Assembly (NCBI RefSeq): GCF_035083965.1
Contig: NC_089729.1
Span: 16,790,964-16,854,963 of the forward strand
Length of the DNA: 64,000 bases
DNA from: Branchiostoma lanceolatum
Lineage: Eukaryota > Chordata > Leptocardii > Amphioxiformes > Branchiostomatidae
Reading direction: 5' to 3'
Shown here: in pieces, positions 5,135-24,871 of the stretch
How the letters are laid out: each line of letters begins with the position of its first letter
Numbering within the stretch: position 1 is the stretch's first letter
Program-made: the position numbers and the translations under genes
The notes under the pieces: model-generated
Told to the model about the DNA's origin: nothing
The model's input: only the letters and a program-made list of their open reading frames with translations
Databases searched by the model: none

Positions 5135-6153
5135 GTAAGAAGAGCTGACATGTAAAGGTTTGGAGAACAAATTGTGAAAGAAGAAGTTTCATGAAGGGGC
5201 CTCGCGATCGCGGGGAGGCATCATAATTTTTCGCATTGTCCGTCCGTAAGCTAAACTACAAGCAGATATATCGTAGAGTGAATAATGAAAAATGATATCA
5301 TATATTTTGGACTAGGTTGTACTTGGTTGTACCGTTTGGGTCTCGAATTGATGTTCTTTGACGGGAAAGTAGAAAATGTAAACAAAGTGAGGATCGTTAT
5401 GGGTTATTTAATTATGTTGGAGTGTTGATATTATATTAAACGGGCCCAAAAATTTAGCTTTGTTGCACTGTATTGAGAACGCCAATATACAGTGTCTGGA
5501 GCCAACATGTTATGATCAGGTTCACAGACACTGATATTGAAAGGACCGAATTGGCCTGTTTTACGTATACTGCAAACCCCTACATGCGCCCGATCTTCCC
5601 GCCAAAAACTCACATCTGGGTTCCATTCCCGCCATGAGGCCAGATGGGGAGAGTATGAAGACCAGGGGACAGTGCACTAACTGCTGCAGTGTTACTTTCA
5701 AAACACCTTCATACATGCAGCTCACTATTTCTCAGTCTTTGTACATTTTCCAATTGGACTCAGTGTTGTGTATTGTTTTACCAAGGATAGAGAAGGATTT
5801 AAACCTCCTTGGTTTTACTGAAAATGAACATTTGTTTACACTAACAATCTATGTGTATGGTGGGACATGCACATCCCCACCGGTCTGGTGAAATCCTGAT
5901 GCTGACCTCGGAAATTAGACGCCCAGGTTACTCTCCAGCTTGTTGACTGTCTGGTATTATGAATGTACATATGCTCAGAGAGGAAAGTCATTGACCCCTT
6001 ATGATTGTCAACAATTTACAGTGAAATTTTTCATTACATAACTCATGAGCGTAAAAGTAAACATATCAAACAATACAGATAGAGAGGACCTTAAGTATGT
6101 CAAAGAGAGGATTAAGTATGTCAATTGCCTGATGCTTTGTCTTGTTTTTTCAG
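5135..6153 (+). other. Probable intron 1 of the 12-finger gene
   Basis: The segment runs from GTAAGA at 5135 to a T-rich tract and TTTTTTCAG at 6145-6153. Open reading frames inside it, including the 44 codons upstream of and in frame with the finger ORF, show no family resemblance and would be spliced out. Confidence 0.45.
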
Positions 6154-6176
6154 AAGTTGATCCAGATATTGTTGAC

Positions 6177-7331
6177 ATGGCAAAAACAGGCAGCATGCAA
6201 GGTTTGGATGACGTCAGGAGAGGAGCAGCAGGGGGCTCTGCCAACAGTGTTTCCACCTGGCAAGGAGAAAGATGTGAAGAGTTTGGGGAAGAGTCCAGAC
6301 AGGGCAAAGGTGTGAAAGTGTACAGGTGTGAAGAATGTAGCAGGCAGTTCAGTCAGCTGGGTAACCTGAAGACTCACATGCATACTCACACTGCTGAGAA
6401 ACCCTACAAGTGTGAGGAATGCAGCAAGCACTTCAGCATGCGAGGTGACCTGAAAAAACACATGCGTACTCACACAGGAGAGAAACCTTACAGGTGTGAG
6501 GAGTGTAGCAGGCAGTTCAGTAACTTGGGTCATCTAAAGACTCACATGCATACTCATACTGGTGAGAAACCCTACAGGTGTGAGGAGTGCAGCAGGCAGT
6601 TCAGTAAGCTGAGTAATCTGAAGAGACACATGCACACTCACACAGGAGAGAAACCCTACAAGTGCGAGGAATGCAGCAAGCTTTTCAGCATGCGAGATGA
6701 CCTGAAGAAACACATGCGTACTCACACAGGAGAGAAACCCTACAGGTGTGAGGAGTGTAGCAAGCAGTTCAGTCAGCTGGATAATCTGAAGACTCACATG
6801 CGGACTCACACTGGTGAGAAACCTTACAGGTGTGAGGAGTGTGGCAGGCAGTTCAGTGGACTAGGTCATCTGAAGGAACACATGCATACTCACACAGGGG
6901 AGAAACCTTACAGGTGTGAGGAGTGTAGCAGGCAGTTCAGTCTGCTGGGTCATCTGAAGACTCACATGCGTACTCACACAGGGGAGAAACCTTACAGGTG
7001 TGAGGAGTGTACCAGGCAGTTCAGTCGACTAAGTCATCTGAAGGAACACATGCGTACTCACACAGGGGAGAAGCCCTACAGGTGTGAGAAGTGTAGCAAG
7101 CAGTTCAGTCAGCTGGGTCATCTGAAGACTCACATGCGAACTCACACAGGGGAGAAACCTTACAGGTGTGAGGAGTGCAGCAGGCAGTTCAGTCGACTAG
7201 GTCATCTGAGGGAACACATGCGTACTCACACAGGGGAGAAACCTTACAGGTGTGAGGAGTGTAGCAGGCAGTTCAGTCAGCTGGGTAATCTGAAGAAACA
7301 CATGCGGACCCACAAGGGAGAAACCATATAG
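6177..7331 (+). CDS. C2H2 zinc-finger protein, 12 tandem fingers
   Basis: This encodes a 384-residue probable sequence-specific DNA-binding nuclear protein. A short N-terminal leader of about 45 residues has no KRAB, BTB or SCAN domain. Twelve consecutive C2H2 fingers of exactly 28 residues follow, each CxxC-x12-HxxxH, joined by TGEKPY linkers (TAEKP after finger 1). The last finger ends HKGETI before TAG. Helix residues at -1, 2, 3 and 6 read QGNT, MGDK, NGHT, KSNR, MDDK, QDNT, GGHE, LGHT, RSHE, QGHT, RGHE, QGNK. I chose ATG 6177 because a CAG acceptor lies at 6151-6153. The in-frame ATG at 6045 sits in the likely intron. Finger frameworks are almost identical, so the array grew by recent duplication. 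No orthologue can be named; this is a lineage-type ZNF. Confidence 0.88.
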   Translation: MAKTGSMQGLDDVRRGAAGGSANSVSTWQGERCEEFGEESRQGKGVKVYRCEECSRQFSQLGNLKTHMHTHTAEKPYKCEECSKHFSMRGDLKKHMRTHTGEKPYRCEECSRQFSNLGHLKTHMHTHTGEKPYRCEECSRQFSKLSNLKRHMHTHTGEKPYKCEECSKLFSMRDDLKKHMRTHTGEKPYRCEECSKQFSQLDNLKTHMRTHTGEKPYRCEECGRQFSGLGHLKEHMHTHTGEKPYRCEECSRQFSLLGHLKTHMRTHTGEKPYRCEECTRQFSRLSHLKEHMRTHTGEKPYRCEKCSKQFSQLGHLKTHMRTHTGEKPYRCEECSRQFSRLGHLREHMRTHTGEKPYRCEECSRQFSQLGNLKKHMRTHKGETI

Positions 7332-11729: not shown

Positions 11730-12655
11730 CCCTATCTAGACCGGGGGGGGGGGGGGCTAAAAGTGCCCGCGCCAACTTTGACATCGTATAACTGCCAAAC
11801 GACGTATGGTAGGACAACCAAACTTGGTGACTTTTCCTGAAATTTAGTTGGCAACAATATTATGATAAAAGTATAAGTTTATCATTTTTCGTGTTGCCAT
11901 GGCAACCGGTTTCTGAAGAGGCATTTTCTGCAAATTTCACTAATTTCGATTTAAACATAGTTGTTTCCAATGTTTTTTTGCTCAACCACACTAGTATCTT
12001 AAATGTACAACATCATATGTAATTCAATGTAACTGTCATGATTAAATATTCATAAATTATGCTAATTTGATGACGTCATCGCTCAAAATCCAAGATGGCG
12101 GACAAGATCATTAAATTCGGTATAAACAGGCTTTTTCGCCTTTAGATTCGTCATAACCTGGAATTTTCTTAACCAGAAACATTCAGATTAATGTTTTATG
12201 TCTATTATGATTGTTATTTGGGGTCATAAATGGGAAAAAAGTATTTTTGAAAATTTCAAAATGGCCGATCCAAGATGGCGGATCCCAGGGGGTCGCTAAA
12301 AACACATGACGTCATCGTTCGACGTCATTTTGACGTCAACTTCGTCACCACTGACGTCAAATGTCTTGGCATACCTTTAAATCAATAATACGCAGTATTT
12401 TGTCTAATACGTTTAGATATTATGGGAATTCCCTATTTAGCCAATAAAATCACATCGATGACGTCATAATTACGTTATATTACGTCATAACGTCACAAAA
12501 ATTGCAGGAATTATAAAACTTTACGTGAACATCACTCCCTGCAAATTTGGTGATGATACGGCACACCGTTCGGAAGTTATGATGGTAGGGTCGAAAGAGC
12601 CCCCCCCCCCCCCCCCCCGTCCAAGAAGTCTAAAAAAAGCCCGGTCTAGATAGGG
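11730..12655. mobile_element. piggyBac-like non-autonomous element, 926 bp
   Basis: Terminal inverted repeats start CCCTATCTAGACCGGG at 11730 and are mirrored up to 12655. The element is flanked by TTAA at 11726-11729 and 12656-12659. TTAA duplication with CCC termini is the piggyBac signature. Just inside the ends are a run of 14 G (11743-11756) and a run of 19 C (12600-12618). The interior has no ORF. It contains five perfect TGACGTCA sites (12071, 12307, 12331, 12352, 12459) and two CAAGATGGCGG motifs (12091, 12271). Confidence 0.8.
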
Positions 12656-13314
12656 TTAAGCGCCACGCTCAACACAAAACCCACTGATTGCAACCTGTTT
12701 CTTTGCAAGATAAATGTCACAAAAATGGTAGCAGTAGACTGGCGGTCACTATAGACAGGATTCGGTATGCCTGTGTCAATGAGATGATTATCTAAGGGAC
12801 CACCAAAGAGTGGTCAAAATGGCGGTGCTTTAAGAAAGATGGACACTAGTACAGGTTAGACTGTACGAGGGGTGATCAATAAGTCCTCTGCCTCACCCAG
12901 AAATAAGGTCCACATCTAAAATTTCGGGTTATGATTATGTAGCATGACATGTTTTAGCAATATCCACCAAACTTCAAAGTATTGCGGTCAATATTTTTTA
13001 GTCGACGTCCATTTAAAAACTAGTAGGTAAGTGATGAGAAAAACAATGTTGAAACTCTGAGATGTGTGGGTCGAGTTCCTCGGGCCAAGAATTGCCATAA
13101 AATCTCCGAAGACATTGTCAAAATGTTTGATGAAGATCCCCTTCTTATTTCAACTAAAAAGTAGTGGGTATCCGACTTTCAGCAGAGCAAGTTGGCCAGC
13201 ACACCTCAGGTCGCAGCTCAATTGTCCATGTTTGTATCCTTCTACCTCACCTAATGTTACGGAGTGCCGTCTGCAAAGTAATGATCACAACGATTTGAAA
13301 CTTGGTAGACATAC

Positions 13315-13475
13315 TGTGGTGAACCCACTATGACCCCTTTGGGGAAGTGGTACAGCCCAGAGGGCAGAGGGCACTCAGAGTCGAGAGTCCTGGAAAACAA
13401 GCAGAATAAACTGAGCTCTCCCAACTTACCGATGTGCTTGTGATGACTTTGGTTATAAGAACCTAGTATCTAACA
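13315..13475 (+). repeat. 5' LTR
   Basis: 161 bp, starting TGTGGTGAACCC and ending ATCTAACA. It carries an AATAAA polyadenylation signal at 13405-13410. It is unusually short, and it matches the 3' LTR base for base on reading. Confidence 0.93.
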
Positions 13476-14156
13476 TTGGCGTCACGGACTATACCTGAAC
13501 CTACTGTCATCACCTCGAAGAGGAACGGAACTGTTTCCACCACTCCATCCTACTGTGCCGCGGACTGCAAGCTGAAGACGCTCATCCGTCAAGTAAGAGG
13601 AGAAGGAACTTTCCCCCTTCAATTCAACACATCTTCCTGGGAAGCCACGGACCTCTGCACCGTTTCCAGCAACACTTCAACCTACATCTTTTGGACATTC
13701 CGGTTCCAGAAAGTTACCATTTCTCCACTTCTACCCTGCCACATGCCAAGGAAGGTCAGTGCATCTAGGCCTCTAACCAGTTCCAGATGTTGAGGGAGAC
13801 AGAAGTCTGGGCCTGCTGACGGGCCGTCTGAAGACAATCTCCTGTTTCTCAGGCCGGACTCATTGCATTGTATTGTATTTCCTGATAGGATTGAAATCCA
13901 GTTCCTTTTCCTTATTTTATTGTCACCTGTGGCTCTGTTAGACCTCCTAACTGTATCTTAGGCCTACCCTCTGTGCCATTTGTTTTTGTACTCAAGCCAC
14001 ATTCTCGCTAATTTAGACATTCCTCAGTGTGTGCTAGCCTACGTTTTCTGGTTTTAACCAGACGGGCGTTTCCAAAGCCGTTCGTTGTATCGCATATATT
14101 TTTGTCATTGTAAACTTATATCTGCAATCCCAAGCCTGTTGAGCTGTCCGCGTGCC
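13476..14156 (+). other. Retrotransposon leader
   Basis: About 680 bp of untranslated leader between the 5' LTR and the gag-pol ATG. It opens with TTGGCGTCACGG, a likely primer-binding site from 13477. A 105-codon open frame here lacks an ATG and is not taken as a gene. Confidence 0.6.
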
Positions 14157-17100
14157 ATGGCGCCTCCGAAATTCAGTCAAATGTCAGTAGCAAGTCTCCG
14201 GAAAGCCTGTGGGGAGCGGGGAATCGACCCCTCTGCCATGGACAAAGAGGACATGCTGGCTTCTTTGTACAGCCACGAACATAAGCAGCAGGCCGACGAG
14301 GCGAGCGCTGTCAAATTGAAGGAGCTGGAGCTCGAGAAGCTGAAGCTGGAGCTTGAGACAGCAAAAGTGCGTCATAACGCAGAACATCAGTTGTTGGTCG
14401 AAGAACGGCGCCTCTTAGAAACGAAACTGGAACTTGAAGGACATAAACTCACCCCAGCCACAACAGAATCTACAAAGGGCCCCAAGATCCCACAGTTCTA
14501 TGAAGGGGAAGACGTCGAGGTGTACCTCACCACCTTTGAACGCCTCGCAACTGCCAACGGATGGCCTAAGTCTCGGTGGGCGCCAAAGCTGGCGGCTTTG
14601 CTCTCGGGTAAGGCGCGAGAGGCATTTGTGCAGTTGTCCGAGATCGATAGCATGGATTACGATAAAGTTAAACTAGCCATCTATGCCAAGTATGAGCTGA
14701 CGGCGGAGGAGTACAGACACCGATTTCGGACCTCCCGTAAACAACCCTCGGATAGCTACAAGGAGTGGCTTTGTAAACTCCATGTTGGTCTGGGTCGTTG
14801 GGCAGACGCAGCAGAGCGTGAACGTCAGAAGAAGGATGACACTAAGGAGCAGTTCCTTACAAAGCTCATAATAAGGGAGCAGTTCCTAGAGGGCTGTCCG
14901 CCCGACCTCGCGGATAAGTTACAAGAACAGGATATATGGGAGCCAAAAGACTTGGCCACAGCAGCTGATAGAATCACAAACAAACACAAATTCGCTAACT
15001 CGGGCGCCAGTTCATCGTCGCCCCAGCTAACCTGTTCCTACTGCAAGAACCCTGGACATGACATCAGGAGCTGCAAGAAGCTGAAGGCCAAACCACAGAA
15101 CAGCATGTTCTGCGATGGCCGTTACCAGTTCTGGGATTCCGACCAACCCATCCCAGACAACAAGTGGAGCATGGAAGGTGCGATCGATGGCCGACGGGTG
15201 CACATCTACAGAGATACTGGCAGTACAATGACATTTGTTAATGGCAAATATGTATCCCAGAAGTCTTACCTCGGAGACTTCATTCGAGTCAGGATGGCCA
15301 ACGGCACTGTGGACGAGATCCCCACTGCCCTGGTCTCTCTCAATGTGGCGGGCGAACAGAAACAGATTGAGGTCGGCGTCATGAATACCCCCTTCCCTGT
15401 CCTGCTGGGCAACGACTATCACACTGCCTGCGTCGTAACCCGTGCACAGGCCCACCGAGCCCACGCAGCGGAGGAGAAGATTGCAGATGAGGCATCCACA
15501 TCCGACGTTCATCCTACCCCTCTCTACACGTTGGACGACACAACCAGGGAAAACTCAGACGACCCTGCCATTGCTGATCCCCTTGGAACCGCCGATGAAG
15601 ACGAAGGCGACATCGCAGCTCCCCTAGGCGTCCCACACCACGCACCTACCTTGACAACCTCCTTAGACGCCGCTGATGACGCCTCAGTGTTCGATGTCAC
15701 ACCACAACGCCTTCTCGCCCAGCAGTCTGCTGACCAGTCCTTGCAATCAGCATGGAGGGATGCTATCCCAGAGCTGGAGAGCAGGCATCTGCAAACATGT
15801 TATGTCAAGAGACATGGATATCTGATGAGGAAATGGACCCCTACCCAGCGACAGGGTGAGGATGGTGCAGCTCCGGGTATGTCACCGGTGTTTCAGGTGG
15901 TCGTCCCAGCAGAGCATAGAATCCAAGTTCTCCGTCTCGCCCACACTATTCCACTCGCCGGACACCTCGGAATCACCCGCACCAGAGAGCGTATTCTCCA
16001 GCATTTCTACTGGCCGGGATTATTCAGGGACGTCAAACGATTCTGCAAGGGTTGCCCTGAATGCCAAAGGTCCGCCACACGGCGCGCCGGGGAAAAACAC
16101 ACAATGGTGGCCCCGCCAATCATCGGCAAACCTTTTCGGAGGATCGGAATCGACATCGTCGGCCCCCTCCAACGCTCTAACTCGGGCAACAAATTCATCC
16201 TCACCATGGTGGACCATGCAACACGCTACCCGGAGGCTATACCCCTCCCGTCCACAGAGGCTGAACGTGTCGCTAAGGCCCTCATGACATTCTTCTCCAG
16301 GGTTGGAATCCCGGAAGAGATCCTCACCGACCAGGGTGCCAACTTCCTGTCCACAGTTCTCACCCAAATGTGTGAGAAGCTCGGCATCCACAAGCTCCGC
16401 ACTTCACCCTACCACCCCCAGACCAACGGAGTATGTGAGCGCTTCAACGGAACTCTGAAAGCCATGCTCCGCAAGCTCGTCAGCGAGGATGCCAAAGACT
16501 GGGATGACTACCTCCCATTCGTATGTTTCGCCTACCGGGAAACTCCATGTGCATCGACCGGCTTCTCGCCCTTTGAACTCACCTTCGGCCGGCAAGTAAG
16601 GGGTCCACTGATGGTCCTCCGCGAAACATGGCTGGACGAGGAAGAGCAGGAAGACAGCCTTGCCGACTACATCACCGACTTGAAAACTAAGCTAGAATGG
16701 ATGCAAGAGTGGTCCCTTCAACAGCAAGAAACGACACAGAAGAAGTCAAAGGCCTGGTACGACAAAACAGCCAGAGACAGGGAATTCAGCGTAGGGGATC
16801 AGGTTCTGGTGCTCCTTCCCTCCGCTACCTCGAAACTACAACGACAATGGAGAGGACCCTACACAATCATGCAGAAGATGAACTCCGTAGACTACAAGGT
16901 GGACACGGGACGTCGGACAAAACGAATTCGAATCTACCACGTGAACCTGCTACGCCCATGGGAGCAACCCATGCAGGTGGCAGGCTCCACCACACTGGAA
17001 GAGGACCTTCCCGGCCTTGACACGGCTGTTTCTGAAAGCGCAGAGCTATCAGAAATTACCTATGGCCCGGACCTCTCGGACATGCAGCTAGCAGAACTTC

Positions 17101-18458
17101 ACCGCCTAGTCCGCAAACACTCAGCAGTCATCTCCGGCAACCCAGGGAAAACCACAGCTGCCGAGTTTGACATTCTCACTCACAACGACCAGCCGACTCA
17201 TCAAATGGCATACCCCATCCCTCACAAAGTGAGACCCGAACTGCAACGAGAAATCCACAATCTACAGAAGCTGGGCATCATCCAGGAATCCGAAAGCCCA
17301 TACAATGCCCCAATAGTACTAGTTAACAAGAAGGATGGCGGTGTCCGCATGTGTGTTGACTACAGAAAACTAAACAATGAGACCATCGCTGATAGGTATC
17401 CGATGCCCAGGATAGACGAAATTATCGACGGAGTAGGCGCATCACGTTACATCTCAGTCATCGACTTGACGAAGGGTTTCTACCAGATACCACTATCATC
17501 CAGGGCCAGGAGTAAATCAGCATTTCAGACGTTTCTCGGCCATTTCGAGTTCACCAGGATGCCCTTCGGGATGAAAAATGCGCCTGCCTGTTTCCAGCGT
17601 ATGATGGATAAGATACTCAGAGGAGCGGAAGAATATGCAAGAGCAGTGATGGACGACATTGTGGTCAGCAGCCTCACATGGGAAGACCACCTAAACCATC
17701 TCGATGACATCTTCGCGCGCCTGGCAAAAGCCTGCCTGACTGTAAAACCGTCAAAATGCAGACTGGCTATGCCAAGGGCGGACTACCTGGGTAAGGTGGT
17801 CGGACAAGGCGAGGTATGCCCCATGTCCAGCAAGGTGGCCGCCATCCAAAACACACCAGCTCCTAAAACCAAAAAAGGAGTCAGAGCGTTCATTGGATTG
17901 GTGAACTACTATAAGGATTTCATCGCCAACATGGCCAATGTCGCAGCCCCCCTTACAGATCTCCTGAAGAAGAACCAGCCAAATCACATCAACTGGACGC
18001 CGCAATGCGCCGCTGCATTCAACAAGTTGAAGGAAGCTCTCTGCCACGAACCGGTGCTCAAGATAGCCAACCACGACAAGCCCTTCATCGTCCAGGTTGA
18101 CGCGTGTGACAACGGTATTGGAGCTGTCCTCAGCCAAAGAGATGCTGCAGGTTGTGACCACCCCATAGCCTACAGAAGCCGGAAGCTTACAGACCGCCAA
18201 CGCAAGTGGTCCACCATAGAGAAGGAATGTTACGCCATTCTCTTCGCCACCGAACAGTTTCGGTACTACATCTATGGCCGTCCCTTCACGGTGCAGTCTG
18301 ACCACAAGCCGCTGACATGGCTCGGGCAGCTACGAGACAAGAACAGGCGTCTCATGAGGTGGAGCTTCCTGCTCCAGGAGCATGACATTGTGTTTGAGCA
18401 CAAAAAAGGCGTCCAAAACGGTAACGCGGACGGCCTCAGCAGGGCTTGGGACATATAA
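14157..18458 (+). CDS. Gag-Pol polyprotein of Gmr1-like retrotransposon (PR-INT-RT-RNase H)
   Basis: This single 1433-residue frame starts at GCCATGG (14157). The frame is open upstream but has no other ATG. Domains in order: a SAP-like N-terminus (about 8-40); a Glu/Lys/Leu-rich coiled coil (45-98); a capsid region (about 110-240) of the type related to SCAN domains; a CCHC knuckle CSYCKNPGHDIRSC near 292; an aspartic protease with DTG at 353. Integrase follows with an HHCC zinc motif (about 596-633), catalytic D666, D725 and E761, and a GPY module. Reverse transcriptase follows (about 1020-1230) with VMDD at 1164-1167. RNase H has D1315 and E1355. Gag and Pol are fused without a frameshift. 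No stop interrupts any domain, so the protein may be functional. Confidence 0.95.
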   Translation: MAPPKFSQMSVASLRKACGERGIDPSAMDKEDMLASLYSHEHKQQADEASAVKLKELELEKLKLELETAKVRHNAEHQLLVEERRLLETKLELEGHKLTPATTESTKGPKIPQFYEGEDVEVYLTTFERLATANGWPKSRWAPKLAALLSGKAREAFVQLSEIDSMDYDKVKLAIYAKYELTAEEYRHRFRTSRKQPSDSYKEWLCKLHVGLGRWADAAERERQKKDDTKEQFLTKLIIREQFLEGCPPDLADKLQEQDIWEPKDLATAADRITNKHKFANSGASSSSPQLTCSYCKNPGHDIRSCKKLKAKPQNSMFCDGRYQFWDSDQPIPDNKWSMEGAIDGRRVHIYRDTGSTMTFVNGKYVSQKSYLGDFIRVRMANGTVDEIPTALVSLNVAGEQKQIEVGVMNTPFPVLLGNDYHTACVVTRAQAHRAHAAEEKIADEASTSDVHPTPLYTLDDTTRENSDDPAIADPLGTADEDEGDIAAPLGVPHHAPTLTTSLDAADDASVFDVTPQRLLAQQSADQSLQSAWRDAIPELESRHLQTCYVKRHGYLMRKWTPTQRQGEDGAAPGMSPVFQVVVPAEHRIQVLRLAHTIPLAGHLGITRTRERILQHFYWPGLFRDVKRFCKGCPECQRSATRRAGEKHTMVAPPIIGKPFRRIGIDIVGPLQRSNSGNKFILTMVDHATRYPEAIPLPSTEAERVAKALMTFFSRVGIPEEILTDQGANFLSTVLTQMCEKLGIHKLRTSPYHPQTNGVCERFNGTLKAMLRKLVSEDAKDWDDYLPFVCFAYRETPCASTGFSPFELTFGRQVRGPLMVLRETWLDEEEQEDSLADYITDLKTKLEWMQEWSLQQQETTQKKSKAWYDKTARDREFSVGDQVLVLLPSATSKLQRQWRGPYTIMQKMNSVDYKVDTGRRTKRIRIYHVNLLRPWEQPMQVAGSTTLEEDLPGLDTAVSESAELSEITYGPDLSDMQLAELHRLVRKHSAVISGNPGKTTAAEFDILTHNDQPTHQMAYPIPHKVRPELQREIHNLQKLGIIQESESPYNAPIVLVNKKDGGVRMCVDYRKLNNETIADRYPMPRIDEIIDGVGASRYISVIDLTKGFYQIPLSSRARSKSAFQTFLGHFEFTRMPFGMKNAPACFQRMMDKILRGAEEYARAVMDDIVVSSLTWEDHLNHLDDIFARLAKACLTVKPSKCRLAMPRADYLGKVVGQGEVCPMSSKVAAIQNTPAPKTKKGVRAFIGLVNYYKDFIANMANVAAPLTDLLKKNQPNHINWTPQCAAAFNKLKEALCHEPVLKIANHDKPFIVQVDACDNGIGAVLSQRDAAGCDHPIAYRSRKLTDRQRKWSTIEKECYAILFATEQFRYYIYGRPFTVQSDHKPLTWLGQLRDKNRRLMRWSFLLQEHDIVFEHKKGVQNGNADGLSRAWDI

Positions 18459-18628
18459 GTCAGTTACTAGTTATAGTGAACCTTTTGTTCAGTTCAGTCC
18501 AGGACCTTTTAAACCTGTTTAGTCACGTTGTAAACTAGCTTTAGTAGTAACTTGTAGTAAGTAGCAGCCTAGTGGACCCACATGTATCATCAGATTGACC
18601 CCGTAAACCTTCTTAAAGTGGGAAGGCA

Positions 18629-18789
18629 TGTGGTGAACCCACTATGACCCCTTTGGGGAAGTGGTACAGCCCAGAGGGCAGAGGGCACTCAGAGTCGAGA
18701 GTCCTGGAAAACAAGCAGAATAAACTGAGCTCTCCCAACTTACCGATGTGCTTGTGATGACTTTGGTTATAAGAACCTAGTATCTAACA
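18629..18789 (+). repeat. 3' LTR
   Basis: 161 bp, matching the 5' LTR throughout, with AATAAA at 18719-18724. It is followed by CATAC, the second copy of the target duplication. Confidence 0.93.
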
Positions 18790-19103
18790 CATACATAAAA
18801 GACTTCATACTACATAATTATTTCCCAAAAATTTGAGCTGTGCACCTTATTTCTGGGTGAGGCTGAGGACTTATTTATCACCCCTCGTACATATATTTTG
18901 TATATTGATACATCTTATGTTTGCTTATGACGGAATAAAATGTTGAATCAGCAACACTCAAAGCTCCTAGTCATCATTGTTGTTTTTGACCGAGCAGACA
19001 GAGTAGATATCTGTGAACAAAATAAAATACAGTACTTTTCAGCTCCAGGAAGCTAAACCAGCACCATGGTCGGAGCCAATTGCTTCACCGTAAACATCTG
19101 TTA

Positions 19104-19473
19104 GGCTACACCAAGTAATTTGGTCTGTTCCCAGAAAAAAACCCCAGAAATTCTGCTTCCTGTCACTATGACCAAAGAGTTACGACAGTGCCGCAAATCA
19201 ATGGGATGTGGAAAGAAACAGGACAGGACAACAACTGCTGTTCAACTTCAACTGATTTATTAAAATTATTGCTGTTTTCATGATGAATAAAATTATCGTT
19301 AGTTGTTACACTGTGTTCTCTCATTCAATTTGTGTCCTAACATGTGTCGTTGACTATCATATTTCAAATCTAGGCATCTTGTTTTTTTCGGCCCTTCTTG
19401 TTTTTTTTCGCGCTCTCGCATTAGATTTAGGGTCTCCAAAGGACGTCATCCATAAAAATTACTTGGTGCAGCC
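19104..19473. mobile_element. Harbinger-type MITE, long family, copy 1
   Basis: This 370-bp element begins GGCTACACCAAGTAATTT and ends with the inverse including GGACGTCATCCATAAAAATT. It is flanked by TTA at 19101-19103 and 19474-19476. Compared with the copy at 26091 its left TIR has lost about 30 bp. The first bases GGCYACACCAA are shared with the foldback MITE family, suggesting one transposase served both. Confidence 0.8.
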
Positions 19474-19476
19474 TTA

Positions 19477-21700
19477 ACTGCTAAACAGTATCTAGTCCTG
19501 GCTGGACGTCGAAATGTCGACAGATAAAATTCATCATTTTAGGAAACTATGAACACATCATATATCTGTATGTATCTGGCGTTTTGAATTATTTATAACT
19601 CGTATTTGTACCTGCATTTCGAGGGGCAAATCTTGCTGGCAGACTTATGCTAAGGTATTGCTAAAAAAAAGTTCCTTGGCCCTTCCCCCAAGCCAATTCT
19701 TTTTTCCATGGCCCTCCCCCAGGAATTTTTTCCCCTTAGCCCTCTCCCCCCTACGCCCCCCCGGTAAATTTCGTACTGTCCCTTATTAGATTATGTTTTA
19801 ATTGGGTTTAAGGACATTGTGCATTTTTTTAAAATCTAAGCCCTCCGATCTATCGTTGACGTTAAACCTTGAAAACAACATCTTTTTAAAACCAAATAGA
19901 ATGAAAAGCTATTTTCCTGTCCGTAAACATGCGGTACTCTGCGAGCGGATTTGCCACGTTTTATGTTTGTTTTTGCCTGGCCAGAGACAACAGATAGTGT
20001 CTGTTTGTGTTTTGCTTTGTGTACAAAATAAGCTTTCCCACAACAACTTTACCCAGCGCTTCCTTTCGTAAGAATCGGGTCCCTAGTGGCTGTATTGTGT
20101 GGCTATCTCTAGTTAGAAGCCACAGTTAGGACACCGCACGTGGGGCGTCTTCATCAACGAGCCAGGTAAAACTCCTTACAAGTGAGTGGGTCAGTTCTAT
20201 GTCTCGGGAACATGTGTTACAATGACACCTTGAATTGTTTATTACTGCATAATGGTCCAAGTAAGACATATAAGGGTTGGTGGTGTGTTTTCTCAAGGGC
20301 TTGCGCAATCTGTAGGTGAGGCGCCTCACATGGAACTTGGGCGTGTTGTAGATTGAACAGGGGCCGAGTTAGGAACCTAGATGTGTTTTACAGACCGAAA
20401 TGTGAGTTAGTTGACTGTTGTAGCTCCTTTAATTACTAGACCGGCTAAGATACCTTACAGGTGAGGTTTATTGTTTATTGTTAAAACGACATCCATTAGT
20501 GAATTACACAGATGCACTTCACTACAGCTTCCTGGAGTCATAAACATGATAACATATACATACATACATTGCATTGCATAACATAACATTACATAGTATA
20601 TACATATTTACTTCAATTTCAATTTACTACCAGTTCAGAATGTTTGAGTCCGTTTTAGTCTGTCTTTGATGAGTAGTTTGAAGGAGGATGGAACAGATGA
20701 TCTGATGTGATGTGGAAGGTAGGTATGTTCCGTTTGACTAGGGACCAGGTAAACTACCTTACAGGTGAGGTAGGTGTGTTTCGTCCATAGTTGATGCTGT
20801 GGTGGAATCTTTGCTTTCCGGTTCAAATCCAACCTTTGACTGTTCAAGGCACATATACCATGTGGACGCTGTGTGTTGCGTGTCAACAATTGTACTCAAA
20901 CAATTAAGGGCCATTGAGATTTTTGATGTAGGAAATGGCATGAAAGCGGCTAGCCTCAGTTGCAGACTCCATGCGGTTGTTTCCTTTCATAGGTTTTTAG
21001 GCATTGTGATGCAATCAAAACCACATGTGAACGAGCATGGCCCTTTTCATAACACTCCCCCACCCGTTTCTAGAGATGGTTTCTTCCGCATAGAGACGTA
21101 TCGATGTTGATGGAAGGTACCATTGTTGGAGGGGTAAGGGTGGTCACGCCAGGCACTGCCTTTTTATGGTGTTTCAAGCAGTGTTTGGGTGTATAATTAA
21201 AGGGTCAATGACCCGCCTATTCCTCGGTTAATATGCTGCCATAAGACCTGGTCATTTGCTATAACCACCGAATAGAATTACCCAGTGAGCAACGCGAAGG
21301 GAGCACAGAAGGGAAACATGTTGTTTTTGCTTCGTTTCTTCCTCTTCTTCTTCTTCTCCAAACACATTAGGTCAATGAGGGCTGTAACCATGGTTACTGG
21401 GAAAATGACAGACACAGGGGTGTTGGATTGCATTTTGTAACAAATCGGCAAGACAGAGCTGGAGGGCTGCTCACCACGTATATGAATTAGTCTGTATAAC
21501 CAATAATGTCCTTGGTATAACGAAAACTCCAGCTGTCCGGGGGTTTCTCTCCCCTCCCTATTGGGTTGGGAGCCGATTACAGGACGGCGAGCGGTCACAG
21601 GAGGCTTGATTGAATTCAGGCTAGTATATGAATGTGTAAAATAAACATAGCAGCAGCTAGTAAAGCTAGACCACGTGAAGGTAAACATTAATATGTATTT
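19477..21700. other. Intergenic with a thrice-repeated short motif
   Basis: No gene is recognised. A motif close to CCAGGTAAACTACCTTACAG followed by GTGAGG occurs at 20162-20186, in shortened form at about 20449-20466, and at 20745-20770. The copies are roughly 285-300 bp apart, which suggests a decayed long-period repeat. The rest is AT-rich and without evident structure. Confidence 0.35.
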
Positions 21701-22265: not shown

Positions 22266-22334
22266 GTAAGTGTCCCTGAATTACACTTCAGTGGGAGATA
22301 CTTCAGATATTTCATGTTTTGCTTTTCCTTGGCA

Positions 22335-23390
22335 AACATGTTACACAGTAAGGTTCTTGTGCTGTGGCAAATACGCTACACAGTCGGGTTCTTGTGTTGT
22401 GGTAAACATGTTACACAGTAAGGTTCTTGTGTGGTGGCAAACATGTTACACAGTAAGGTCCTTGTGTTGTTGCAAACATGTTACACACTAAGGTTCTTGT
22501 GTTGTGGCAAACATGTTACACATGTAAGGTTCTTGTGTTATGGCAAACATGTTAATACACAGTAAGGTTCTTGTGTTGTGGCAAACATGTTACACAGTAA
22601 GGTTCTTGTGTTGTGGCAAACATGTTACACAGTAAGGTTCTTGTGTTGTGGCAAACATGTTAATACACAGTAAGGTTCTTGTGTGGTGGCAAACATTTTA
22701 CACAGTAAGGTTCTTGTGTTGTGGCAAACATGTTAGACAGTAAGGTTCTTGTGTGGTAGCAAACATGTTAGACAGTAAGGTTCTTGTGTGGTAGCAAACA
22801 TGTTAATACACAGTAAGGTTCTTGTGTGGTGGCAAACATGTTACACAGTAAGGTTCTTGTGTTGTGGCAAACATGTTACACAGTAAGGTTCTTGTGTTGT
22901 GGCAAACATGTTAATACACAGTAAGGTTCTTGTGTGGTGGCAAACATTTTACACAGTAAGGTTCTTGTGTTGTGGCAAACATGTTACACAGTAAGGTTCT
23001 TGTGTGGTAGCAAACATGTTAGACAGTAAGGTTCTTGTGTGGTAGCAAACATGTTAATACACAGTAAGGTTCTTGTGTGGTGGCAAACATGTTACACAGT
23101 AAGGTTCTTGTGTTGTGGCAAACATGTTACACAGTAAGGTTCTTGTGTTGTGGCAAACATGTTAATACACAGTAAGGTTCTTGTGTGGTGGCAAACATTT
23201 TACACAGTAAGGTTCTTGTGTTGTGGCAAACATGTTAGACAGTAAGGTTCTTGTGTGGTAGCAAACATGTTAATACACAGTAAGGTTCTTGTGTGGTGGC
23301 AAACATGTTACACAGTAAGGTTTTTGTGTTGTGGCAAACACGTTAGACAGTAAGGTTCTTGTGTGGTAGCAAACATGTTGCACTGCATAG
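22335..23390 (+). repeat. 35-bp minisatellite with higher-order structure
   Basis: About 30 tandem units of GTAAGGTTCTTGTG followed by TGGCAAACATGTTACACA (35 bp). Variants include TTAATACACA (3 bp longer), CATTTTACAC, and GGTAGC with TTAGACA. The combination of the longer variant with CATTTT recurs at 22666, 22911 and 23162, about 245-251 bp apart. This indicates a seven-unit block was itself duplicated. It lies in the presumed intron before the finger exon. Confidence 0.9.
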
Positions 23391-23432
23391 ATTCTTGTGT
23401 TTTTTACGTCTAAGTTTCTTTCCCCCTATTAG

Positions 23433-24871
23433 ATGGAAGAAGCAGCAGAAGATCTGCATGAACAGACAGAAGAGAAACGGCCTTGTCCAGAAACAGACCA
23501 TGGAGGGACAAGGAAACAGAGCCGCAAGACTCACAGTGCTGATAGACCACATCGATGCCGGGAATGCGAGTTCTCCGCATCCAAGATGTCCGCCATGAAA
23601 CGGCACGTTAGGACGTCGCACGCCGCAGGTAAAGGTAAACAAACGAAGAAAGATCACCTTGTGAAGCATCTCAGGGCAACTCACGGTGCCGGTGAGAGAC
23701 CTTTTCAGTGCGATGTCTGCGACTATTCCGCTGCACGAAAGGTTCACATGAAACTTCACATCATGGCCAAACACAGTAACTACCGGCCGTACAGCTGCGC
23801 AAAGTGCAACTACTCTGCAGTCAGCAAAAACCTGTTAAAGGTTCATATGATGTCACACACTGGTGAGAAGCCCTACAGCTGTGAGCGGTGTGCTTTTGCC
23901 ACTGCCCAGAAGAGCAAATTGAAGCGTCACATGGCCATCCACACCGGGGAGAAACCTTACAGGTGTGATGAATGCGGTTATTCTACAGCACGAAAGTATG
24001 ATTTGAAGAGTCACATGGCTACCCACATGGAGGGGGGGGGGGGGGGGCTTACAGGTGTGATGTATGTGGTTATTCTACAGCACAGATGTCTCATTTGAAG
24101 CAGCACATCGCTACCCACACTGGTGAGAAACCTTACAGGTGTGATGTATGTGGTTATTCTACAGCACAGATGTCTCATTTGAAGCAGCACATCGCTACCC
24201 ACACTGGTGAGAAACCTTACAGGTGTGATGTATGTGGTTATTCTACAGCACAGATGTCTCATTTGAAGCAGCACATCGCTACCCACACTGGTGAGAAACC
24301 TTACAGGTGTGATGTATGTGGTTATTCTACAGCACAGATGTCTCATTTGAAGCGTCACATCGCTACCCACACTGGGGAGAAACCTTACAGGTGTGATGTA
24401 TGTGGTTATTCTACAGCACATATGTCTCATTTGAAGCGTCACATCGCTACCCACACTGGTGAGAAACCTTACAGGTGTGATGTATGTGGTTATTCTACGG
24501 CACGAAATTATGATTTGAAGAGTCACATGGCCACCCACACTGGAGAGAAACCTTTCAAGTGTAATATATGCGGTTATTCTACAGCACGAATGTCTCGTTT
24601 GAAGCAGCACATCACTACCCACACTGGAGAGAAACCTTTCAAGTGTGATATATGCGGTTATTCTACAGCACGAATGTCTCGTTTCAAGCAGCACATCACT
24701 ACCCACACTGGGGAGAAACCTTTCAAGTGTGAGGTTTGCAGCTATTCTACGGCTCAAAAGTCTCAATTAAAGAATCACATGACCAGCCACACTGGGGAGA
24801 AACCTGTCGCGTGTGTTACGCAGAAGGATGGTTATACCGGCTTTACAAGTACAATTGCCCACACAGTCTAA
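23433..24871 (+). pseudogene. C2H2 zinc-finger gene with 14 fingers, frame broken at a G16 run
   Basis: The coding exon opens with ATG directly after a CTATTAG acceptor (23426-23432). An acidic leader is followed by finger 1, a partial finger lacking its CxxC (KKDHLVKHLRATH), then fingers 2-5 of CxxC-x12-HxxxxH or HxxxH type with YSTA cores. At 24032-24047 a run of 16 G replaces the expected TGEKP linker and adds 8 bp. The frame shifts and would stop at 24098. Nine more fingers (YRCDVCGYSTA, later FKCDICGYSTA) continue cleanly in another frame to TAA at 24871. Fingers 6-10 are nearly identical at DNA level (84-bp unit). The intact second half argues that the break is a sequencing or assembly error or very recent. 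If the break is an error, this is a working probable DNA-binding protein. No orthologue is recognised. Confidence 0.75.

Follow-up and report, generated by a model that had tools for sequence, protein, structure and literature searches.

Does the segment at positions 13315-18789 of this window, the whole 64,000-nucleotide stretch of Branchiostoma lanceolatum DNA that we analysed, hold a complete mobile element, and to which group does it belong? A first-pass annotation had read it as a Gmr1-like retrotransposon. We conclude, with a probability of roughly 0.95, that it is a complete, recently inserted and autonomous Gmr1-like Ty3/gypsy long terminal repeat (LTR) retrotransposon of lancelet. The marks of an autonomous element are present: an LTR pair, a target-site duplication, a purine tract and an open gag-pol frame with its catalytic acids. 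Positions below are those of the window, and the element and its parts lie on the plus strand.

Limits and age of the element

The element is 5,475 bp long and is bounded by two 161-bp direct repeats that are 100% identical, the 5′ LTR at 13315-13475 and the 3′ LTR at 18629-18789, which were located by direct-repeat matching and have TG...CA ends. The target-site duplication CATAC stands on either side (13310-13314 and 18790-18794), so that the matching LTRs and the perfect duplication described in the first-pass annotation are both seen in the sequence. This LTR pair was the sole direct-repeat family of at least 25 bp in 12500-19600, and a blastn search of the LTR against the whole window (E ≤ 1) returned only 12-13 bp matches beyond both LTRs.

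With no differences over 161 positions, the 95% upper bound on LTR divergence is ~1.8%, and the insertion is therefore recent, not closely dated. The earlier description of a recent copy holds insofar as the LTRs are identical, but this is a weak clock, which bounds divergence only below ~1.8%. The LTRs had also been called unusually short, which agrees with lengths of 337-518 bp given for four fish Gmr elements in the accessible part of their description (PMC11117352).

A single frame with integrase ahead of reverse transcriptase

The open frame extends from a TTG at 14085 to a stop at 18456-18458. Its first ATG, at 14157, has G at −3 and +4, a good start context, and begins a product of 1,433 amino acids with no internal stop, as had been claimed. 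We performed Pfam searches on five overlapping pieces of this Gag-Pol protein and found, in order, SCAN, a weak zinc finger, aspartyl protease (PR), integrase (IN) zinc-binding domain, integrase core, GPY-type integrase C-terminus, reverse transcriptase (RT; RVT_1) and RNase H (RH). This is the single-frame order of gag, protease, integrase, RT and RNase H that the first reading had proposed.

Behind the capsid, a CCHC zinc knuckle (CX2CX4HX4C, by motif) lies at 15033-15074 and the aspartyl protease, with DTGS at 15213, at 15174-15419, its Pfam score of 27.3 bits falling just under the cut-off of 28.2. The HHCC zinc-binding domain and DDE core of the integrase occupy 15903-16439 (Pfam and a structure match to Ty3), followed by the GPY C-terminus (Integrase_p58_C) at 16854-16958. 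The RT is found at 17322-17792 (Pfam and a Ty3 match) and the RNase H at 17994-18431, where the Pfam match extends up to 18380 and the last catalytic acid, D1425, lies at 18429.

The best match among solved structures was the Ty3 RT for the RT-RNase H piece (E = 1.6e-83) and Ty3 again for the integrase piece (E = 3.5e-32); together with the Pfam results, this bears out the earlier view that the RT, the RNase H and the GPY integrase are of Ty3/gypsy type. No copia-type RT (RVT_2) or gag_pre-integrs domain was found at E ≤ 1 in the Pfam scan of the Gag-Pol pieces, and for the integrase piece NCBIfam returned nothing but transposase models, all under cut-off. Because both RT and integrase are closest to Ty3 among solved structures, the odd domain order most likely reflects an internal rearrangement of a gypsy pol and not the capture of a copia integrase.

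Using alignment to Ty3, invariant or nearly invariant columns and known motifs, we assigned catalytic roles to D353 in the protease; D666, D725 and E761 in the integrase, which also has H596, H603, C633 and C636; D1103, D1166 and D1167 in the RT; and D1315, E1355, D1382 and D1425 in the RNase H. The catalytic acids are thus all present, as had been stated, but the tyrosine of the RT box is replaced: the box at 17646-17657 reads VMDD instead of YxDD.

The VMDD box and the mobility of this copy

We searched for relatives with the IN-RT-RH region as query among proteins of 471-1,500 amino acids, a range in which separate Gag frames would be missed. Of 7,967 proteins scored, 4,827 matched at E ≤ 0.001, and the best 120 were examined. 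Of these 120, 115 begin the YxDD box with Y, three with V and one each with F and L. The V-bearing proteins, P0001-P0003, are all from lancelets (B. lanceolatum, B. belcheri and B. floridae x B. belcheri, respectively), and since VMDD is common to all three records, a recent disabling change seems unlikely.

The box matters to the alternative that survives best, namely that this copy is dead or defective, with an intact frame that is nevertheless immobile, as VMDD weakens the RT or the short LTR has no promoter. A valine does replace the YxDD tyrosine, and we saw no usable TATA box in the LTR: an AATAAA is present at 13405, and the single TATAA, at 13454, is probably too close to the LTR end to act as a promoter. 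However, TATA-less LTR promoters are common, the frame is open and the LTRs are identical. The occurrence of VMDD in proteins from three lancelet records further suggests that the lineage probably kept spreading with it. We consider a dead copy unlikely.

Kinship with integrase-first, SCAN-bearing proteins

Integrase preceded RT in 120 of the 120 best relatives, with PR-IN-RT-RH in 80 and IN-RT-RH without a detected protease in 40, an outcome that the query's own IN-RT-RH layout favours. The control L003, scanned separately, carried RT, RNase H and then integrase; L001 showed PR-IN-RT-RH and L002 RT and RNase H only. We then chose 33 relatives of 1,408-1,499 amino acids from the best 120, and all 33 had SCAN (E ≤ 1), integrase, RT and RNase H within one protein. 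As 64 of the 120 are at least 1,400 amino acids long, the fused Gag-Pol that was earlier singled out as an oddity is instead common in the group.

In a tree of 38 rows, 35 integrase-first rows fell on one side of a branch with 99/99 support, and the window sequence grouped with P0001-P0005 (100/98); the outgroup branches were very long. When L001 and L002 were left out (36 rows), support for the integrase-first branch was 91/79, with the bootstrap unsettled. The window element is thus firmly established as a close relative of integrase-first, SCAN-bearing proteins, but the position of the outgroups is not firm.

The marks of Gmr1 elements, according to the accessible portions of four papers, are integrase before RT, gypsy-type enzymes and a SCAN-type capsid (PMC8220671, PMC4131045, PMC2774666, PMC4592553). 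The lancelet element shows each of these: its integrase lies ahead of the RT, its RT, integrase and RNase H are of gypsy type, and its capsid is of SCAN type. This supports the Gmr1-like assignment, made by comparison with published descriptions. Alternatively, it could be a non-Gmr1 gypsy element that arrived at the integrase-first order on its own, and approximately unbiased (AU) tests do not fix its placement against distant outgroups, since grouping of the window lineage with Ty3 (p 0.48) or with L003 (p 0.398) was not rejected. We regard this as very improbable: the nearest rows are all integrase-first, the 33 scanned relatives all have SCAN, and among frog LTR elements SCAN is reported, in the part of the study available, in Gmr elements only and in more than half of these (PMC4131045).

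The group is broader than the deuterostome clade proposed in the first-pass annotation. Named relatives among the best 120 include echinoderms and sponges, and a search with a shorter stretch of Gag brought up 7 proteins, including a SCAN-bearing one from the shrimp Penaeus vannamei. Gmr1-like elements are described, in the sections consulted, from crustaceans (PMC3587641) and an annelid (PMC8220671); these occurrences and the sponge relatives show that Gmr1-like elements extend beyond the deuterostomes. A pattern search gave 16 matches in viral contigs, none of them a relative, and 36 in prokaryote contigs, of which 3 were relatives, probably all eukaryote contamination. L001, a 5441 bp contig catalogued as part of a Candidatus Thiodubiliella genome, holds a Gmr1-like element and is probably contamination from a host animal.

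The closest protein, P0001, is a B. lanceolatum record of 1,433 amino acids that differs from the window frame at 8 of 1,433 residues; it is named GIN1, "Gypsy retrotransposon integrase-like protein 1", as is a second B. lanceolatum record, P0061. That the frame is a domesticated host gene, as this name might imply, is barely credible given an LTR pair, target-site duplication, Gag, protease, RT and RNase H together in one insertion and a protein cluster of 6 members, and the name would fit automatic annotation from the integrase. The GIN1 naming of P0001 and P0061 is likely a misannotation of retrotransposon Gag-Pol, and the database entry P0001 would thus appear to be a retrotransposon polyprotein and not a host gene.

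Structure of Gag

The capsid (14478-14987, by Pfam and structure comparison) has two lobes. The first, residues 108-184, resembles the C-terminal capsid domains of Rous sarcoma virus (RSV), human immunodeficiency virus (HIV) and PEG10. The second, residues 184-277, is a SCAN domain: the Gag piece scored 27.6 bits against a Pfam cut-off of 27 (E 2.6e-6), while the near-identical whole protein P0001 scored 24.2 bits, under the cut-off. The comparison of Gag with the SCAN profile that had been suggested earlier therefore succeeded and structure comparison agrees with it, in keeping with the claim of a SCAN-related gag.

Ahead of the capsid, a helix-loop-helix at 14157-14270 forms the Gag N-terminus. 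It matched Pfam SAP with an E value of 0.0061, under the cut-off, and its structure model is close to SAP and Rho-N structures. A long, coiled-coil-like helix is predicted for residues 30-97 (14244-14447). Six Gag N-termini were picked by eye out of the 33 long relatives; five match SAP, one above cut-off and P0002 at just 0.0066, and P0003 shows no match. With the element's first 48 residues as query, 6 of 127 proteins matched at E ≤ 0.01, four of them from lancelet. SAP as a general Gmr1 feature is unsupported, as Pfam SAP was found at E ≤ 1 in 4 of the 33 long relatives and the label, assigned by eye, has to change 4 times over the tree. Among the titles and abstract openings searched, in a literature set with few subscription journals, none reported SAP in a retrotransposon Gag. 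Judging from the structure model, the SAP-like fold with which Gag begins in this element and a few relatives is possibly new.

Leader, probable priming sites and proposed life cycle

A probable primer-binding site, beginning TGG one base past the 5′ LTR, lies at 13477-13494; it may resemble the 3′ end of animal tRNA-Ser, and a tRNA search of the whole window found none. A polypurine-like tract, AAAGTGGGAAGG, stands at 18615-18626, two bases ahead of the 3′ LTR. The leader of 681 nt (13476-14156) holds two ATG triplets, at 13743 and 13787, where base composition predicts 9.0, and only 21 of 5,000 single-base shuffles were as low; this scarcity may ease ribosome scanning. The leader RNA folds no better than its shuffles (z 0.22, with 12 of 20 at least as stable), so we claim no conserved RNA element, and Rfam at gathering scores gave no match in the whole window.

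By the general biology of LTR retrotransposons, transcription would start within the LTR, and Gag-Pol would be made as a single polyprotein and cleaved by its own protease. The capsid lobes would assemble the particle, a tRNA would prime cDNA synthesis, and the integrase would insert the cDNA, giving the 5-bp duplication.

Genomic neighborhood

The retrotransposon is a nested insertion: it interrupts the right arm of an older element, whose inverted repeats are imperfect (118 bp, 82% in the joined empty site). The older repeats, at 12862-12978 and at 13294-13314 plus 18795-18891, start GAGGGGTGAT beside TAC, and the older element is presumably a mariner-type miniature inverted-repeat transposable element. 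Two C2H2 zinc-finger open reading frames (6045-7331 and 23433-24871, plus strand) flank the retrotransposon on the same strand. A C2H2 array and SCAN are the two modules fused in vertebrate SCAN-zinc-finger proteins; the flanking is probably a coincidence.

A more speculative proposal, which we offer tentatively and think rather doubtful, is that in a Gmr1 sub-branch a SAP-type nucleic-acid-binding module sits at the extreme N-terminus, ahead of the SCAN capsid, and serves either to retain genomic RNA or to anchor particles or cDNA on the chromatin of the host. The same branch would be present in lancelets with a VMDD RT, and an intact SCAN-encoding copy between C2H2 frames would be a living invertebrate chordate example of the neighborhood from which vertebrate SCAN-zinc-finger genes could arise.

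Elsewhere in the window, a tandem array with a 35/38-bp period (22272-23465) surrounds the start of the second zinc-finger frame, and a minus-strand frame at 34187-34735 matches methylpurine-DNA glycosylase (E 6.4e-33). A dispersed family, D6, is represented by 18 copies of its 61-nt unit (identity ≥ 60%), scattered between 7690 and 52825 and mostly starting ATAACT.

Comparison with known systems

The nearest counterparts of the window element are lancelet sequences known as proteins only. P0002 and P0003 are 84% and 79% identical to it over IN-RT-RH, respectively, and belong to the same lineage, with VMDD and a similar Gag N-terminus. P0061 and P0092 represent a second lancelet lineage, also Gmr1-like, with SCAN and integrase first, that is 48% identical over IN-RT-RH and forms a separate branch of the tree. 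We found no description of such an element from lancelets in the literature searched, and the accessible part of an amphioxus transposon paper (PMC5802833) has no mention of gypsy.

Judged by the available descriptions, the Gmr1 clade (Gadus morhua Gmr1 and relatives) shares integrase upstream of RT, gypsy-type enzymes and the SCAN-type capsid with the lancelet element, which may differ in its VMDD box and SAP-like Gag N-terminus. The four fish Gmr elements likewise encode Gag and Pol as one protein, but differ in their longer LTRs, again as far as the accessible text goes (PMC11117352). Yeast Ty3, the closest solved RT and integrase, has integrase after RT/RNase H (7q5b 624-1009, then 1089-1434). 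The vertebrate SCAN domains of PEG3, ZNF24 and MZF1 have the same fold as the second capsid lobe; there it occurs in host zinc-finger proteins without pol.

The window thus provides a complete copy, in an invertebrate chordate, of the group regarded as the probable source of the SCAN domain, and its intact frame leaves the enzymes and Gag domains open to testing. Compared with these systems, it is a new example of an already known element type, in which the SAP-like module, the VMDD box and the zinc-finger neighborhood are the only points that a specialist might find unexpected.
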